Below are positions 3,607 to 55,735 of a stretch of 64,000 nucleotides of DNA, piece by piece; position 1 is the first letter of the stretch; each line of letters opens with the position of its first letter. Source of the stretch: Odontesthes bonariensis (taxonomy: Eukaryota; Chordata; Actinopteri; Atheriniformes; Atherinopsidae). The translations under genes and the position numbers were made by a program. Location: assembly GCF_027942865.1 (NCBI RefSeq), contig NC_134506.1:14468436-14532435 (forward strand), in the 5' to 3' direction. A model generated the notes under the pieces. The model was not told where the DNA came from, searched no databases, and worked only from the letters and a program-made list of their open reading frames with translations.

Positions 3607-19572
<15,966 letters not shown>

Positions 19573-21578
19573 GCTCTGCCAACTGTCCCACAGCCTGGAA
19601 CAGAGAAAAAAGTAACATCTTAACAATCTAAGAAAGCTGCAGGACTGAGGCCTGCTTTCTCAACGGTACTGTTTGTTCAGGTTCAACTGAGAGTTCAGCC
19701 ATTCTAATCCTAATTTTAAATGAACTCATGAACATGCACAACTATGTTTGGTGAATCCCACACTGCTTGAATTGTTAATTTTCAAGTTGAACAAGCTTTG
19801 ATAAAACATTTTTTTTCGTTTGAAAGTAACACAAACCTGCAAATAACCAAGAAAAGGTTATCCAAGAACTAAATGCATGAGCTCAAACAATCAATTTAAG
19901 GTAAATAATTAATCTTAATTGCTTTCTAATCATTAATGACCATTATAAAACATTAATACTGTATATTTCATTTATCGCTAAGCCGTTCACAAAGTCTTCC
20001 AGAAGTGGTCAAAGGTGTTAAGTCCTCGTCTTAAGATCAAATACAGCCATTCAGCAGACTTCAGGGGCTCCAGCGTGAGATGATTTATACTCGGAAACCA
20101 GGTCGTCTACGTGTGTGTCGCAGTTAACGCAGACACTACGCAGACACTCTGGTGCACCTCCTCAAAATTGTAAAGGGCAGATTAAAGTTCTGCGTCTATC
20201 GTCTTGACGTGTTGCTTTGCTCTGGTCGCGAACCACTTTTCATGTTATGGTTCTGCAACCTCGGTCTGGAATTTCTCGGGACGCACAGCAGTTTCTCCTC
20301 GCGAAAATTTCGGTGGGCGGTGACGAGAACTTCAGCGGTGCCGGCGGAAGTGTTTATCTTTAAAAAAAAAAAAAGTGTATGCAAGATATGGATCTGGAGT
20401 TGCTCGACATCGAAGAAGAACAGCTTATTTTATTGGAGTTGGCGAAAATGCAAAGGAGGAAGCCACACAGGCAACCGGAAATTCACACCGAGGACCAATC
20501 ACAGCCGCTTTTGTCTGCGCACTTCCGTTGGTGGTCTGCGTGCGTCTGTCGCGTAGTCAGGATTTTTCTGAGGTGCACGAGGACGCGCGCAGAGCCTCTG
20601 CGTGGGGGAGTGGTCAAGATTTTGACTCTCGCAGAGGCTCTGCGTCTGAGCGTCAGAGGCTTTGCGTCTGAAGCATAAATCAGGCTTAACTCACCGCAGA
20701 CAGTGCCGCAGACATCGCCGCAGGGAGGAGAGATTGGTCAACACTACACTATGCGTATTTCCGGTTTGCTAACCGGCTGACGCTAACCGTGCTAACCATG
20801 ACGATTCTTTCGCCTCTCTGCCAGCTCCAGTAGTAGCAATATTTATTCTATTTCTAGATCGATCAGCTGCATCTCAATCAAAGTGCGCATTCGTCCAGTC
20901 GCCATTGTTGTTGAATGACCTCCGTAACCGTAACACCCACAATCCTAGCTTGTTCGTGATTGTCCCTCTTGCGTTGTGGCGTGGGATTAACATAGCGCAG
21001 ACAGCGCTTCAAGGCATAAATCAAAAATAACTGCGTCGTGTCTGCGACAAGCTCACTGCGACACACTGCTGCGAAGTATACACGAGCCTTAACGCAGACA
21101 CTACGCAGACACTCTGGTGCACCTCCTCAAAATTGTAAAGCCTGATTTATGCTTCAGACGCAAAGCCTCTGACGCTCGGACGCAGAGCCTCTGCGAGCGT
21201 CAAAATCTTGACCACTCCCCCACGCAGAGGCTCTGCGCGCGTTGTCGTGCACCTCAGAAAAATCCTGACTACGCGACAGACGCACGCAGACCACCAACGG
21301 AAGTGCGCAGACAAAAGCGGCTGTGATTGGTCCTCGGTGTGCCTTTCTGGTTGTCTGTGTGGCTTCCTCCTTTGCATTTTCGCCAACTCCAATAAAAGAA
21401 GCTGTCTTCTTCGATGTCGAGCAACTCCAGATCCATATCTTGCATACACTTTTTTTTTTTTGAAAGATAAACACTTCTGCCGGCGCCGACGAAGTTCTCG
21501 TCACCGCCCACCGAAATTCTCGCGAGGGGAAACTGCTGTGCGTCCCAAATTCCAGACCGAGGTTGCAGAACCATAACA

Positions 21579-26359: not shown

Positions 26360-26647
<288 letters not shown>

Positions 26648-33150: not shown

Positions 33151-36100
33151 ATGGCAGATGTTACAACTCCTGATGAGGCTGATGAGCCACAGCAAGAGGA
33201 ATCTATTGCATCCGTCAAGTCCGAAACCGATGAGACCTCTCAGGAAACACCCAATGGCGTGAAAACGTGGGTAACAATAATGTGCTCTTCTCTTAGTCCG
33301 GTCTGTGTTACTGCTAGCTAGCTTAGCTAAAATGGAGTCTTGGGATGCTAGCTATTGTTAACCAAGAAGCCTCTTACCTCTGCTGCAAAAACTAATCCGT
33401 TGGATACCTATTGGGTGGATATTGGATTTAAAGAGAACACAAAAGCTACGCCAAATTTTGATACAAGTTTTAAAATACCACGGTCTTGGCCAAACCTTTA
33501 GTGCAACGGGTACAATGGTTTAAGCTATGCTAATTGTTGTCTGTTGCTGATGTTAGCTACAGCTTGCTAAAATGAAAAATTCAAAGCAAGACAAATCGAC
33601 AATTTAAGATTTTAAAATTGGATTATTTAATCACATGGCTTTACTTGAACTTAGACGTCTTTATTAGCTAAAGCCTCTTTGTGAATTTGAGCGCAGTGTC
33701 TTGTTGTTCATTGAACCAGGTGCAGAGCGTTACGTTAGTAGCTAATGGCTCCGCGATGCTGCACAATAAACCCATGTTAAAGGAACAGTTTTTATATCAT
33801 TTATGCATAATTCAGTAGTGTAAAAGTGGTTTATGATAACGTTTTTAAACGGGCAGGGCAAATGTCAAAGTTACTCTTATAGAGCTTTTTCAAATTCTGA
33901 TTAAATGCCTTTCATCTGTGTACTCATGAGGAATTTGTGGAATTATCAGTAGGATGTCCAAGCTGGTAAGATTAGATTTAAGGTAGGATATAGGCTTTAC
34001 TGGCCTACTAAAGGTCAGGATTGCCCAATGTAATTGGAAAAAATATAATAATTTGAGCCCCCAGATACAAATCTGTAAATCTAGGTTTCATTTAAACAAA
34101 GTGTCAGATAAAGCGTGATCTTATTTGTTAAATACTATTTGTTACTTAATAATTTCCAACATATAGATCACAAGAGGTTATATTGAGTGGATGTTGATGC
34201 TGTTCTTTGACCTGTGCTTCTGCGTGCTTTGTAGGGACAGTGATGAAAATAAGTCCACCAAAGAACAGCATGATCTTAAAGAGAAGTCGGCAGGCAGCAG
34301 AAGAGGAAACCGCTATCATCCCTACAAAGACAAACATGGTGGAGAAAAGAAGAGCGCTCACAGGAACCGAGTGTTCATCAGCAACATCCCCTATGACATG
34401 AAGTGGCAGGCAATTAAAGATCTAATGCGTGAGAAAGGTAATGTCCCCAGTAATGGGGATGGTGTCTCACCCTCCTCTCTGTCTTCTCATCTGATTAGAA
34501 CTTTTTGATTTTGTTTGTTTACCAGATGGAACATCATGCTTCTAGCTCTAGTCTTTTAGTTTGTAGTCTTCTTTGGATGTACTAAGTGCAGATACAAAGG
34601 AAACAACATAGTGTGATTGGTTAAAGGTGTTTTTAATCTATTTTTTTCCTCCTTTCTTGGATGGACACCATTTCAGTTTTGGGCTGATATGTATGTGAGA
34701 AAAGGAAGATGAACTTAGTTTTACATTGTCACTTGTTCTATGGCATTGTCAGCTCCAAAATGTAACCTCAAACTAGTCGTAGAATTGATTGTTGAATGTT
34801 TTTGTTGCATCTGCTGCAAGGTGAACCGTGACTAAAATATTGTAATATTTTACTTTCTGAATTAAGGGGATCTAAAGAAGCCTATTGGTTTCAAAGGACA
34901 GTGTCAAACTCTTTACTGCTATGAATGGAATCTGTTGACAAACTGATCATGTTGAAGTCTTTTGAATTTCCCAGGTTTGATGTAGCTGTGTTTCTCTCTG
35001 GCCTTGGCCTTTGGGTGTCTCAGTCACTGGCCCAACAAGGCAATGTTGTTGTCTGGTGGGATGTTGGTTTGGGCTGACTGTTGATCATTAATGGGACATC
35101 TCCATCCGTAGCGGCATTGCCAAGGCCAAGGGTGACTTGAAGACTTGGTGACTTGAATTACTTTGTTCTTTTGGTATTTTTCCTTTGTATGTCTCATGTA
35201 GTTGGTGAGGTTACATACGTGGAGCTCTTTAAGGATGCAGAAGGAAAGTCAAGGGTAAGTGACGTGGCCAACTTGCTGCACGAGGTTTTAAATGCCCTCA
35301 GCAGGCTCTCATTAATCATGTGCTCTTCTAGGCTCTGATCCTTTGGGTCTACTGAACTGGAGATATTGTAGGTTGTGTTTAGAGCCTGATAGATAGATAA
35401 TGATTGATATTCATTTGAAAGGGAGATGTCCTGTTTTTTTTAATTTTTTTTTGGAAAAGTAGCCTAATGAACTCATCTAAGAGTACATTTTTGTTTTTGT
35501 TGTTGTCATTTCAATTGGTTTAAACGTTTGTTTGTTTGGCCATTTTCCAAAGGGAAATGCAGAGTTGTGTGTTTTTTACCTGATTGATTAACCCTCATGT
35601 CTCAAATATATTTATTTCTACAATTCTTTTACCTTTCACATGTAAAAAAAAAAAGTTTATCTTCAATGGCGCAAAACAGCTTTGATGTTTTATATTAAAT
35701 TGCACAAGTGCATATTCTGGATTTAAATGTGAACGACATCATTAATGACACTATTAGGCCTGAACAATGTGCTAAACATTTCAAGGCTTTTCTTTATGAT
35801 ACCACAGCAGTTTTAATCCAGTTCAAACCCCGTAAAAAGTTAAAGGTAAATTGCACTGCATTAGTTACGTTTTAAACTAGAACTTTTGGATACTATTTAT
35901 TATGTATTTACGATTAAAATGTAAAGTTAACTTTTTTTAATAATTTAAATAAGTATCCCTTTTATCTTGTTTACAATGAAAACAATCACAAACCTGCTGG
36001 CTCAAGCCAGTGGGAGAAGTATGGCCAATGTGTACTCTAGAACATAGAATCATGTTGATAGATTACTTTTATAATGTTCTTTGGTCTTGATTTAAAATGC

Positions 36101-39100
36101 ATTTTGTTCACTCCCCGTGTGCCACCTGGACTCCTGTGATACCCCGTTGATCAGGGCTGTGGGTAAGAATTGACCTTTCTTTCTCAAGTAATACATGAAA
36201 CATTTTTTTATGAAGGTTTTCGTCTTGTGCTTCCATGGACTCACGTTGTGCCTCTTGTTTGCCTCGTGCAACAGTGTGGTGGAGTTCAAAGATGAAGAGT
36301 TTGTGAAGGCGGCAGTATCGGCTATGAACAAGCATGACCTGAGTGGAAGGCCACTCAACATCAAGGAGGTGAGAATCGAATTAATTGGATCTTCGTGATA
36401 GACTCTTGCAACAGCACATGAAAGGTGTTATTTTAGCATTAGTACAAGTTTTTTTCCAATAAATATTTAAGGTAAACAGTTCTCATGGTAATGTTAACCT
36501 ATTTGTAAGTGATTCTGTGTCTGGATCTCCTGTTTAACATTGCACAAATACATTTCATTTGCTCTTTTCTGTAAATTGTATTGATACAAAGACAAAAAGC
36601 GTTTTGTTTAATTTATCTTTTCGTAGAGCTTGGTAGTATAGTGACATCTCATCAGCTTTCCCAACTAAACTTTCACCTGACTTGCTCTTAATGTTTATCT
36701 CAAATTAATTTGTTTAATACCCCCCCCCCCCCCCCCCCCCATATTTTTATTTTAGGACCCTGATGGGGAACATGCCCGGCGTGCGCTGCAGCGCATGGGA
36801 GGAGGTCAGCAGGGAGGCCGTGGGCAGGACATGGGGCCCGGTGGGATGAACATCCCACCCTCCATTGCCAACAACCCAAACATCCCACCTGAGGTCATCC
36901 ATGCACTTCAGGCTGGTCGACTGGGCAACACGGTGTTTGTGGCTAATGTGAGGACTCAGTTCGAAGCCTTTTCTGAATCTGCGTGGTAATGATCGTTGAT
37001 TAAAGATGTTATATTCTGTGTTCTTCAGCTGGATTTCAAGGTGGGCTGGAAGAAGTTAAAAGAGGTGTTCGGCATGGCCGGTGTGGTGAAACGAGCAGAT
37101 GTAAAGGAGGATAAAGATGGCAAGAGCCGCGGGATGGGAACAGTGACTTTTGACCAGCCACTGGAAGCTGTACAGGCCATATGTATCCTTTAAAAAAATT
37201 CAACATTACAATAAAAGAGTGCATATAGAGCAATGGTTAACAATTTGGATGTATGCTTCTCCTTGACTCTGGACCCAGCCATGTTCAATGGACAGATGCT
37301 GTTTGACAGACAGATGCATGTTAAAATGGTATGTTATTTTTAAGTACTGTTGAGGTCAGGTGCTGTACAGGATGTGTAAATTAACCCAGTTAACATGTCT
37401 GTTTTTTGTATGTGTTTGCAGGATGAAAAGTCTCTTCCGCCTGATGATTTCCGTCAAGTAGAAAAACCACATCAGTTACCACGTGAGTACACCGTTATCA
37501 GTCTGAGAGGGATGTGAACAGAACATGTTGATAGAACTGCATACGTATTTATAGTGATGTTTTAGAAAATCCCAGATATATTGCTGAAGCAGGAAGCTGT
37601 TTGTCTTTATGGTAGGGCTGCACGATTATGGAAAAAATCATAATTGAAATCACGATTATTAATCACGAATATGGAACAACAACAAACAACTGAATTTTAT
37701 TGCACTTCTTTCCAAACAAAAAACAATTTTCAGTGCAGAATGTAATTTAAAATCACGAAATTAAATCTAGCTAAGAATGTACTATGTAAGGAATAAACAA
37801 AATAAAACTGAAATGCAATTATTATTGCACAGTCTTTGCACAACACCTGCTTTTGTTGGACTTCGCTAGCCCTGAATCCGAAGTAACTCAACACAGCCGA
37901 AATTGAGCCCCTTCGAGGAACGAGCTCGTCCTTCTCACCAGAGAGACCGGCTGTGGGCTTACCTTCTGCCGCAGCTTCAGCTTGGCTCTCGGTCATTTCA
38001 ATCATCCTCACCACCAGTTTTGTCTTCCCTTATATCACTACTACTCTGCTCTCACCACTTGAACTTGACACCACTGCTGGCTGCACTAGTGAGGAGCTGC
38101 GCGCTTAACTTGCTTGTGGATCAGTTAGGCGGCGTAACAAATAGGTCCATGTTCACCCCCTGGTTGTTGGCGGACTATTGGTTAAATGCTTGCATGCTAG
38201 AGTATAATTCAACTGAACCCGCATTAAGAAAATAAATGTAAAAAAAATTCGCATTTTTCATAATCGTCACGGCCAAAATCGCGATTTTGATTAAAATTCG
38301 ATTAATTGTGCAGCCCTACTTTATGGGATGGCTGTAGCTCAGGAGGAAGATCGGAAGGTCGGTGGTTCGACTCCGGTTCAGTGGCCTACTGATGCATGTA
38401 TGAATGTGGGTGAATGAGTAGTAGAAAGTAGAAAAGCGCGTAGTGCTAAGATATGCTGTGTGAGTGATTGGGTGAATGTGACATGTAGTGTTGGAAGTGC
38501 TTTGAGTGGTCAGTCAGACTAGAAAAGCATTTACAAGTAAAGTCCATTTAGGGATTTTACCATTCATATGTTGGGTAGTAGTGAAAATGTTCACACCGTC
38601 ATAAGAGAGGTACAATGCAGTAGGAAAGAGAATTGAAGGGGAAAATAGAATATATAGTTGTAACACTTTGGGCCATTATGCACAAGTTTGGGCAATTTAT
38701 TACTGGGACAGTCAGTTTCTATCATATGAAATTTTCAATAGTCAAAGCCGATCACACATCAGCTGCTTTCACACACGCACTGGAAAGAGCCCTGAAAGAG
38801 ACTTTTTGCAGAGTTTCCATCCATCCCCCTGTAAATTCTCCATGACATCAGCGGGTGAGACGATGTGTAAATGTGTCAGCAAATGTTTGGGTTCATTTGT
38901 CCTTTCTGCTGACCTGTTTCCGCTCGCTCCCTTTACAAAATAAATACATTCAGTACACACCGAGGAGCCTCATCTGCTATTCTCAATGCATTGTGAAGAA
39001 AATGGCGATTTCCACGTTGTAATTTCTGCATCACGCGCTCCCCTGCTGCCTGCTCGAGACAGCAGTTTCCCCTCCGTTGCATTTCCTTCCGGGAGAGCAC

Positions 39101-42100: not shown

Positions 42101-42359
42101 AAATTGATTAGCAGGCCACAATTACAGGCTTAGTGTTAATCAAAACTTTGTGAACGATTCTAGTTTCAGAATTCAGCAATTTCTCTGTCCCGCAGGTCAG
42201 GTAATGTTCGCAGAAATCAAGATGGAGAATGGAAAATCAAAAGGATGTGGAACAGTGAGATTTGATTCTCCAGACAGCGCTGACAAGGCCTGCAGGATGA
42301 TGAATGGAACCAAGATCAACGGCCGAGAGGTGGATGTCCGCATCGATCGCAACGCTTAG
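33151..42359 (+). CDS. myef2: myef2, myelin expression factor 2 / hnRNP M-like protein (17 coding exons, 577 aa)
   Basis: Nuclear RNA- and single-strand DNA-binding protein with three RRMs. Exons: 33151-33266, 34235-34437, 35202-35254, 36155-36162, 36275-36368, 36756-36947, 37029-37182, 37279-37328, 37422-37482, 39306-39407, 39778-39819, 39902-40006, 40121-40216, 40421-40486, 41695-41870, 41947-41998, 42196-42359; total 1734 nt, open, all phases matching. Human MYEF2 is 600 aa. RRM1 begins RVFISNIPYDMKW (residue about 84), RRM2 follows GNTVFVAN (about 215), and RRM3 starts CQIFVRN (about 500) and ends VDVRIDRNA. Between RRM2 and RRM3 is a Gly/Met-rich linker coded by several short phase-1 exons. 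The first donor is AAAAC|gtgggt, chosen by phase over TGG|gtaaca. hnRNP M is the close paralogue; synteny with ctxn2 and slc24a5 fixes the name. The ATG at 33151 has a good Kozak context. Confidence 0.95.
36155..36162 (+). other. myef2: 8-nt coding microexon of myef2 (GGCTGTGG)
   Basis: Without it, exon 3 (ends AGG, phase 0) cannot join exon 5 (starts T GTG GTG GAG) in frame. The segment ttgatcag|GGCTGTGG|gtaaga has both splice signals and exactly the needed length (2 mod 3). The join reads S-R-G-C-G-V-V-E-F-K-D-E, the expected RRM1 RNP1 sequence of MYEF2. Residues 125-127 depend on it. Confidence 0.85.
36720..36740 (+). repeat. C21 homopolymer in the 3' splice region of a myef2 intron
   Basis: Twenty-one consecutive C end 15 nt before the acceptor ...tattttag|GAC of the exon at 36756. 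It forms part of the pyrimidine tract on the transcript; the opposite DNA strand carries G21. Confidence 0.9.
37605..38326. mobile_element. hAT-type non-autonomous element (706 bp) in a myef2 intron
   Basis: Exact 8-bp target duplication CTTTATGG at 37605-37612 and 38319-38326. Termini are TAGGGCTGCACGATTA and TAGGGCTGCACAATTA (reverse strand from 38318), followed by AT-rich sequence with CACGATTA/GCGATTTT motifs on both sides. Eight-base duplication and TAGGG(C) ends fit hAT. Internal sequence has no transposase. Confidence 0.85.
38327..38560 (+). mobile_element. tRNA-like SINE in a myef2 intron
   Basis: Directly abuts the hAT target duplication. It has Pol III promoter elements in tRNA order: A box TAGCTCAGGAGG (38335-38346) and B box GGTTCGACTCC (38364-38374). 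The body ends with AGTGCTTTGAGTGGTCAGTC and TTTACAAGTAAAGTCCATTT, as in a common fish repeat. Not a functional tRNA: no cloverleaf downstream of the B box. Confidence 0.6.
38757..39223. repeat. possible MITE-like repeat in a myef2 intron
   Basis: Ends show a loose inverted similarity: TCAGCTGCTTTCACACACGC at the left and CACTGCAGCCGTTTTCACAC on the reverse strand at the right. CpG-richer than the flanking intron. No coding capacity and no clear target duplication; tentative. Confidence 0.35.
41033..41052 (+). repeat. T20 homopolymer in a myef2 intron
   Basis: Twenty consecutive T in the long intron between the exons at 40421 and 41695. That 1.2-kb intron otherwise shows nothing I can name. 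Confidence 0.9.
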
Positions 42360-43339: not shown

Positions 43340-50591
<7,252 letters not shown>

Positions 50592-54646: not shown

Positions 54647-55735
54647 ATGGGTATGAAGACACAAGACTTTCTGCTGCTTTTGCTGTGTTTGCCTGGGCTT
54701 GTTCACCGCTCAGGTGCCTACATGTTTTGGACAGCCATGGTGGAAATCAACTACGCTAACAGCAACAATGAGACTGTGGACAAATATTGTGAGTGTGGGG
54801 TGTATGGTCGTAACTCTCCCCTGGACAAAGCCTCAGGCATAGTTACACTCCCTAAAGGGGACCCTAAAGGCTGTGGCCCAGATCCTGTTTACAACCGAAA
54901 CTCCAGCTCTCCGCCTTGGATAGCCCTGGTGAAAAGGGGAAACTGCACCTTCAGTGAAAAGATCAATGCTGCAAAACGTCAAGGAGCTGCTGGTGTGGTC
55001 GTGTATAATATGGATGGCAGTGGAAACAGCACCTCTCACATGGCACATAAAGATGGAGATGGTATTGTGGCCATCATGATTGGCAACAGTCAGGGCCTAG
55101 AGATTGTCAGGTTGATGAAAAACGGAACAGATGTTCAGATGCTTATTGATGTGGGCACCCCCCACGGACCCTGGATGGACACCTACTGGCTGTACTTTTT
55201 GTCCATAGCCTTCTTCATTGTCACGGCAGCCTCGATCGCCTACTTTGTGTTTATCTCTGCCAATCGTCTCTATGGTTTGAGCAGGCACAGAATCAGTGAG
55301 AATAGGCTCAAAACTGAGGCCAAGAAAGCAATTAAGCGCCTTCAAGTACGCACGCTGAAAAGAGGGGATGAGGAAACTACCTCTGACACCCATTTGTGCG
55401 CTGTCTGTATTGAATCCTACAAGGCAGGCGATGTGGTGACGGTGCTTACATGTGACCACATCTTCCATAAAACCTGCATCGAACCCTGGCTGCTGGAGAG
55501 GAGAACCTGCCCCATGTGTAAGTGCGACATTTTGAAGGCTCTTGGAGTTGAGGAGGAGACCAAAGAGAACGTCTCTACAGAATCACCACCAGAGGTCGCC
55601 GTGGTCTCAGTCACAGGAGACGACACCTTGTATGAAGTCCCACTGAATGGCCCAGTGCGCCCCGGCCCAGACCAACACCAGCATCGCTATGACAACAGGG
55701 CCTTTGAGGGAGACTTGGAGGCAGCAAGGGAATGA
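54647..55735 (+). CDS. RNF128/GRAIL-like transmembrane RING-H2 E3 ubiquitin ligase, intronless CDS (362 aa)
   Basis: PA-TM-RING family E3 ligase, expected in endosomal/ER membranes, transferring ubiquitin to membrane proteins. ATG at 54647 sits in an ACCATGG context. Residues 1-24 form a signal peptide. A protease-associated domain follows (about 40-170; SGIVTLPKGDPKGC, WIALVKRGNCTFSEKI, GDGIVAIMIGNSQG) with possible N-glycosylation at N41, N85, N99, N127 and N159. A TM helix lies at about 181-203. The RING-H2 ligands are C251, C254, C269, H271, H274, C277, C288 and C291. HGPW before the TM, RLQVRTLKRGD and CPMCKCDILKALG are as in RNF128. Length fits RNF128/133/148 (305-428 aa). The CDS has no intron, unlike human RNF128 but like RNF133/RNF148, which suggests a retrocopy. 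The frame is intact, so it is probably functional. I cannot fix the orthologue from sequence alone. Confidence 0.9.
   Translation: MGMKTQDFLLLLLCLPGLVHRSGAYMFWTAMVEINYANSNNETVDKYCECGVYGRNSPLDKASGIVTLPKGDPKGCGPDPVYNRNSSSPPWIALVKRGNCTFSEKINAAKRQGAAGVVVYNMDGSGNSTSHMAHKDGDGIVAIMIGNSQGLEIVRLMKNGTDVQMLIDVGTPHGPWMDTYWLYFLSIAFFIVTAASIAYFVFISANRLYGLSRHRISENRLKTEAKKAIKRLQVRTLKRGDEETTSDTHLCAVCIESYKAGDVVTVLTCDHIFHKTCIEPWLLERRTCPMCKCDILKALGVEEETKENVSTESPPEVAVVSVTGDDTLYEVPLNGPVRPGPDQHQHRYDNRAFEGDLEAARE

Follow-up and report, generated by a model that had tools for sequence, protein, structure and literature searches.

A probable 8-nt coding microexon within RRM1 of myef2, with a counterpart in the paralogue hnrnpm

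Main

RNP1 is strand β3 of the RRM, and its typical consensus carries aromatic residues at positions 3 and 5. Neural microexons are typically a multiple of 3 nt in length, keep the reading frame and add residues at domain surfaces. Microexons are an already known kind of feature, defined in the accessible text of PMC8042270 as exons of ≤30 nt, and among fly microexons with exons on both sides the same text counts 283 of 411 as alternative and 128 of 411 as constitutive. For the hnRNP M family (HNRNPM, MYEF2, Drosophila RUMP and C. elegans SUP-46), the accessible sections of PMC5513350 report a single closest homologue in C. elegans, a single one in Drosophila and two in human, and give a MYEF2/HNRNPM protein motif, LPxGLxxIGMGLGxxGxPI/L/V. 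Here we analyse an 8-nt stretch inside the fish myef2 gene and conclude with high confidence that it is a true coding microexon, normally included, ancestral to myef2 and hnrnpm, and kept by the need to preserve the frame. Like the microexons defined in the accessible text of PMC8042270, it is short (8 nt), flanked by GT-AG introns on both sides, coding and conserved in a paralogue; unlike regulated neural microexons, its length is not a multiple of 3 and it lies inside a conserved domain motif. Among open-licence literature we found no report of a MYEF2 microexon or an 8-nt microexon and, judged by titles and the first lines of abstracts, none of an HNRNPM microexon; one paper on HNRNPM (PMC12179342) concerns, in its accessible part, ESRP1 and hnRNPM and not this exon. 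Genome annotation databases probably already carry the microexon.

A frame-restoring 8-nt exon in myef2

The window, which is the whole 64,000-nt stretch of DNA analysed, is part of contig C1 in the 945-Mb genome of Odontesthes bonariensis. Pfam matches identify three minus-strand genes near a plus-strand gene, which lies between the first two:

26360-26647, minus strand: cortexin (PF11057)
43340-43762, minus strand: Na/Ca exchanger (PF01699)
16957-17259, minus strand: SLC12-type transporter (PF08403)

Two further frames, 644-928 and 47615-48211, matched no Pfam family. Cortexin, a Na/Ca exchanger and an SLC12-type transporter are what we take to be the neighbours of human MYEF2, and because this neighbourhood and the family motif agree, we assign the plus-strand gene to myef2 and not to hnrnpm. 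Our model comprises 16 exons including the 8-nt microexon and encodes three RRMs (Pfam RRM_1, PF00076: 67.7, 57.7 and 76.4 bits for RRM1, RRM2 and RRM3) and a Gly/Met-rich linker. The three RRMs are shared with the hnRNP M family, as are the Gly-rich region between RRM2 and RRM3 and the segment LPRGLGGIGMGLGPGGQPI, which fits the family motif given in the accessible text of PMC5513350, and we met no feature that speaks against membership. Among solved structures, three HNRNPM chains match at 54.2, 54.2 and 40.4 bits, and we read them as RRMs other than RRM1.

Elsewhere in the window, positions 20278-21546 form a large inverted repeat, a near-palindrome whose arms measure 271 nt (96%) and 142 nt (95%), and the mirrored reading frames there are a by-product of that repeat. 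On the plus strand, 54647-55735 holds an uninterrupted 362-residue frame that encodes a PA domain and a RING finger, apparently a gene of the membrane E3 ligase type that lacks introns over that length.

The exons and introns around the microexon are arranged as follows:

34236-34437, plus strand: myef2 coding exon of the gene model upstream of the RRM1 exons, with the start of RRM1 (VFISNI); ends in phase 1 (the acceptor AG places the start at 34235; the model is read from 34236)
35202-35254, plus strand: myef2 exon of 53 nt, ending in GGAAAGTCAAGG and followed by gtaagt; phase 0
35255-36154, plus strand: intron upstream of the microexon, 900 nt, from the splice-signal measurement
36155-36162, plus strand: microexon of 8 nt, GGCTGTGG, with a cag acceptor and a gtaaga donor
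36163-36274, plus strand: intron downstream of the microexon, 112 nt, gtaaga...aacag
36275-36368, plus strand: myef2 exon of 94 nt, VVEFKDEEFVKAAVSAMNKHDLSGRPLNIKE, opening with the last base of a codon
36756-36947, plus strand: myef2 exon following RRM1, beginning in phase 0 at GAC
42196-42359, plus strand: last coding exon of myef2, with most of RRM3 and the corresponding Gly-Cys-Gly stretch unsplit, ending with the stop codon

A run of 21 C at 36720-36740 lies shortly 5′ of the 3′ splice site at 36756; its length may vary and may affect that acceptor.

A preliminary description of this DNA had placed the microexon at these coordinates, with the same bases, cag acceptor and gtaaga donor, and had argued that the exons on either side cannot follow one another in frame. 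Our model bears out both points. Because the 53-nt exon ends in phase 0 and the 94-nt exon starts with one base of a codon, the number of bases needed between 35254 and 36275 is 2 mod 3. Joining the exons through GGCTGTGG yields GKSRGCGVVEFKDEEF and restores the peptide SRGCGVVEF; within RNP1 of RRM1, the microexon supplies the Gly and Cys codons and two bases of the Gly codon that follows. The model then stays open from 34236 to the stop at 42359, and its RRM1 is complete. Joined directly, 35254 to 36275, the exons give GKSRCGGVQR and then a stop after six codons, 18 nt into the 94-nt exon, and the Pfam RRM_1 score of RRM1 drops from 66.2 bits with the microexon to 30.8 bits without it, the skip product covering only profile positions 1-40 of 70. 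The further claim that loss of the microexon would shift the frame and destroy RRM1 therefore holds where the microexon alone is skipped (30.8 bits), but not for every join that avoids it, as some of these stay in frame.

A matching microexon in hnrnpm

A protein search of the same genome returned nine matches, four on C1 (myef2), three on C20, and the remaining two, both weak (33-34% identity), on C23 and C2. The C20 gene (locus L011) is identified as hnrnpm by a long Met/Asp/Arg repeat exon and its RRM layout, and its RRM1 protein is 73% identical to that of myef2 (58/79). It has the exon series 53-8-94 nt with phases as in myef2, and its microexon, at L011 5044-5037 in the matching intron, reads aaag, GGTTGTGC, gtaagt and restores SRGCAVVEF. 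The microexon is thus conserved as an exon of the same position, length and phase in a related gene, and in both genes it is at most 30 nt long and flanked by canonical splice sites. Between myef2 and hnrnpm, two of the eight bases differ, one change being synonymous and one replacing Gly with Ala, and human MYEF2 and HNRNPM presumably differ likewise at this residue. Without its microexon, hnrnpm reads SRCR and then a stop, 6 nt into the 94-nt exon, and the RRM_1 score of its RRM1 falls from 65.8 bits to 28.3 bits for the skip product.

The surroundings have diverged. The introns around the microexon measure 900 and 112 nt in myef2 as against 697 and 765 nt in hnrnpm, and the flanks (150 nt 5′ and 112 nt 3′ of the microexon) show no similarity between the genes above mononucleotide shuffles, 171 and 226 of 500 of which reached the observed score. 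Diverged lengths and dissimilar flanks together indicate that the 8 nt have been preserved while their surroundings have not. The paralogue thus provides decisive and independent support for the microexon.

RNP1 of RRM1 reads R-G-C-G-V-V-E-F in myef2 and R-G-C-A-V-V-E-F in hnrnpm. Where the typical consensus has its aromatic residues, myef2 RRM1 has Cys and Val, which departs from a canonical RNP1, and these positions are non-aromatic in all three RRMs of both proteins. The microexon is central to RNP1 by position and does not encode the classic base-stacking residues. Its description as the core of RNP1 was accordingly apt in that it supplies the middle of the motif, and too strong in so far as the classic stacking aromatics are absent.

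The two genes also share a feature in RRM2. Intron 6 of myef2 (37183-37278) and its hnrnpm counterpart (L011 3416-3322) both begin GTATCCTTT and carry TCCTTGAC or TTTCCTAAG shortly 5′ of the 3′ AG; by consensus, they look like a conserved U12-type (minor) intron, of which we found no report for MYEF2 among open-licence literature. Another myef2 intron contains what is probably a non-autonomous DNA transposon, an element of about 0.7 kb (37612-38319) whose 17-nt inverted ends (GTAGGGCTGCACGATTA) are 94% complementary.

Constitutive or regulated inclusion

The splice signals of the microexon are canonical. Near the acceptor (-20 to -4), pyrimidines make up a fraction of 0.59 in myef2 and 0.41 in hnrnpm, ranking second lowest among 15 introns and lowest among 14, respectively; the AG-free zone 5′ of the acceptor extends over 91 nt in myef2 (third longest of 15) and 49 nt in hnrnpm (fifth longest of 14). 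Both microexon donors match 6/9 consensus positions, not the lowest value in either gene, and the donor of the preceding exon matches 8/9. A poor near pyrimidine tract combined with 6/9 donors suggests that inclusion may be incomplete. The low tract, the AG-free zone and the 6/9 donors would be consistent with an upstream intron whose branch point and tract lie far from the acceptor. In myef2, the 112-nt intron may be spliced out before the 900-nt one, so that the 8 nt and the 94-nt exon would form a single exon of ordinary size, 102 nt. Since the hnrnpm counterpart of the 112-nt intron spans 765 nt, the microexon does not in general need a short intron downstream.

These features bear on the proposal, made in the preliminary description, that splicing of the microexon could act as an on/off switch, which stands only as a possibility. 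Skipping in some tissues or at high protein level would produce a premature stop and decay of the transcript, and would thereby set the amount of MYEF2/HNRNPM. Skipping would put the stop 18 nt into the 94-nt exon in myef2 and 6 nt into it in hnrnpm, in either case long before the last exon junction; the myef2 model has 12 more junctions beyond the stop, and the near tract is weak in both genes. So early a stop on loss of the exon, in a gene for an RNA-binding protein, is shared with the AS-NMD essential exons in the accessible text of PMC6547761, and that text names 'an essential exon in HNRNPM' as an unknown but plausible AS-NMD candidate; according to the accessible text of PMC8042270, fly microexons are alternative more often than longer exons. 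However, the accessible text of PMC6547761 does not specify the HNRNPM exon, attaches a q of 0.7 and warns of false positives. Moreover, a premature stop on skipping is a property of any frame-shifting exon, and the intron flanks of the paralogues show no shared regulatory element when compared with shuffles. On balance we consider such a regulated switch unlikely. We would give still less credence to a dosage valve, in which MYEF2/HNRNPM or a shared splicing factor would suppress the weak-tract exon and send the transcript to decay, cross-regulation having kept the 8 nt since duplication. Conservation in the paralogue is no harder to reconcile with a constitutive exon than with a switch, and from the exon structure of the two genes we infer that the microexon is included in the mRNA and is most likely constitutive.

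Joins that bypass or mimic the microexon

A different possibility is that the microexon and the 94-nt exon (together 102 nt, 34 codons) are skipped jointly as a modular unit, which would remove the second half of RRM1 in frame. The join from 35254 to 36756 is in frame in myef2, as is the matching join in hnrnpm, but the myef2 product keeps only RRM_1 profile positions 1-39 of 70 (32.3 bits), and we regard this route as improbable, slightly more so than the dosage valve.

Nor is it at all plausible that there is no microexon and that 35202-35254 is spliced in frame to an acceptor at 36216 or 36285. We scanned donors lying between 40 nt upstream and 400 nt downstream of the exon end against acceptors lying between 600 nt upstream and 30 nt downstream of the start of the next exon, and found 16 of 870 donor-acceptor pairs open in myef2 and 6 of 1482 in hnrnpm. 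From the normal donor at 35254, three joins are open and in frame in myef2 (acceptors 36216, 36285 and 36300); two are in hnrnpm, where the acceptors lie 10 and 22 nt into the 94-nt exon. The 36216 join, which lengthens the exon by 59 nt and replaces three residues with 20, is thus open, as is the 36285 join, which enters 10 nt inside the 94-nt exon, costs six residues and has an in-frame equivalent in hnrnpm. Yet the 36216 join lowers the RRM_1 score from 67.7 to 49.1 bits with the match split into two stretches, and its extension has no counterpart among the two in-frame hnrnpm joins (acceptors within 600 nt); the 36285 join scores 43.3 bits and its hnrnpm equivalent 41.3 versus 65.8. All three sites scored (36216, 36285 and the hnrnpm 10-nt site) hence fall below the microexon form. 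Such joins would also leave the matching 8-mers in the two genes unexplained.

As a control for coincidence, we generated 2000 dinucleotide shuffles each of the myef2 intron (1020 nt) and the hnrnpm intron (1470 nt). At least one open 8-nt stretch occurs in 1826/2000 shuffles of the myef2 intron, so an open frame alone is not unusual and proves little. The pattern AG-GGNTGYG[GC]-GT, encoding Gly-Cys-(Gly/Ala), arises in 2/2000 myef2 and 1/2000 hnrnpm shuffles, and in 0/2000 of either when GTAAG is required; a looser pattern with Phe, Tyr, Cys or Met in the middle appears in 3/2000 and 7/2000. The same match in the corresponding intron of both paralogues is far beyond chance. An accidental 8-mer with AG and GT in a 1020-nt intron, for which one could cite the abundance of in-frame AG-(2..29 nt)-GT stretches (25 against a shuffle mean of 21.6), is therefore ruled out by coding content and paralogue to the point of being next to inconceivable.

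Origin and significance

The microexon is older than the split of myef2 and hnrnpm because both genes keep identical 53-8-94 lengths and phases, and their common ancestor would already have possessed it. In neither gene does an intron interrupt the corresponding stretch of RRM2 or RRM3; hnrnpm RRM3 reads AAG TCC AAG GGC TGT GGT GTG GTT, the same peptide core with no intron, and this sequence (AAGTCCAAGGGCTGTGGTGTGGTT) resembles the spliced RRM1 sequence of myef2. Since RRM2 and RRM3 are unsplit there, we infer that two introns came to split RRM1 8 bp apart and that the microexon is most likely the strip left between them, presumably retained as its loss breaks both the reading frame and RRM1.

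Searches for relatives in a prokaryote contig collection (356 pattern stretches) and a viral contig collection (58) confirmed none, as expected for such sequences. A spliced retrocopy that could serve as proof of inclusion was sought in the genome with two 27-base patterns at ≤3 mismatches, each giving 0 matches.

In practical terms, short-read aligners and gene finders can miss an 8-nt exon and report a truncated RRM1. The locus is a clear example of an ancient exon, too short to be recognized in the ordinary way, that sits at the centre of a conserved domain motif and has been retained in two genes. Should some tissue include it only incompletely, this would be a simple and natural way of controlling how much MYEF2 and HNRNPM is made.
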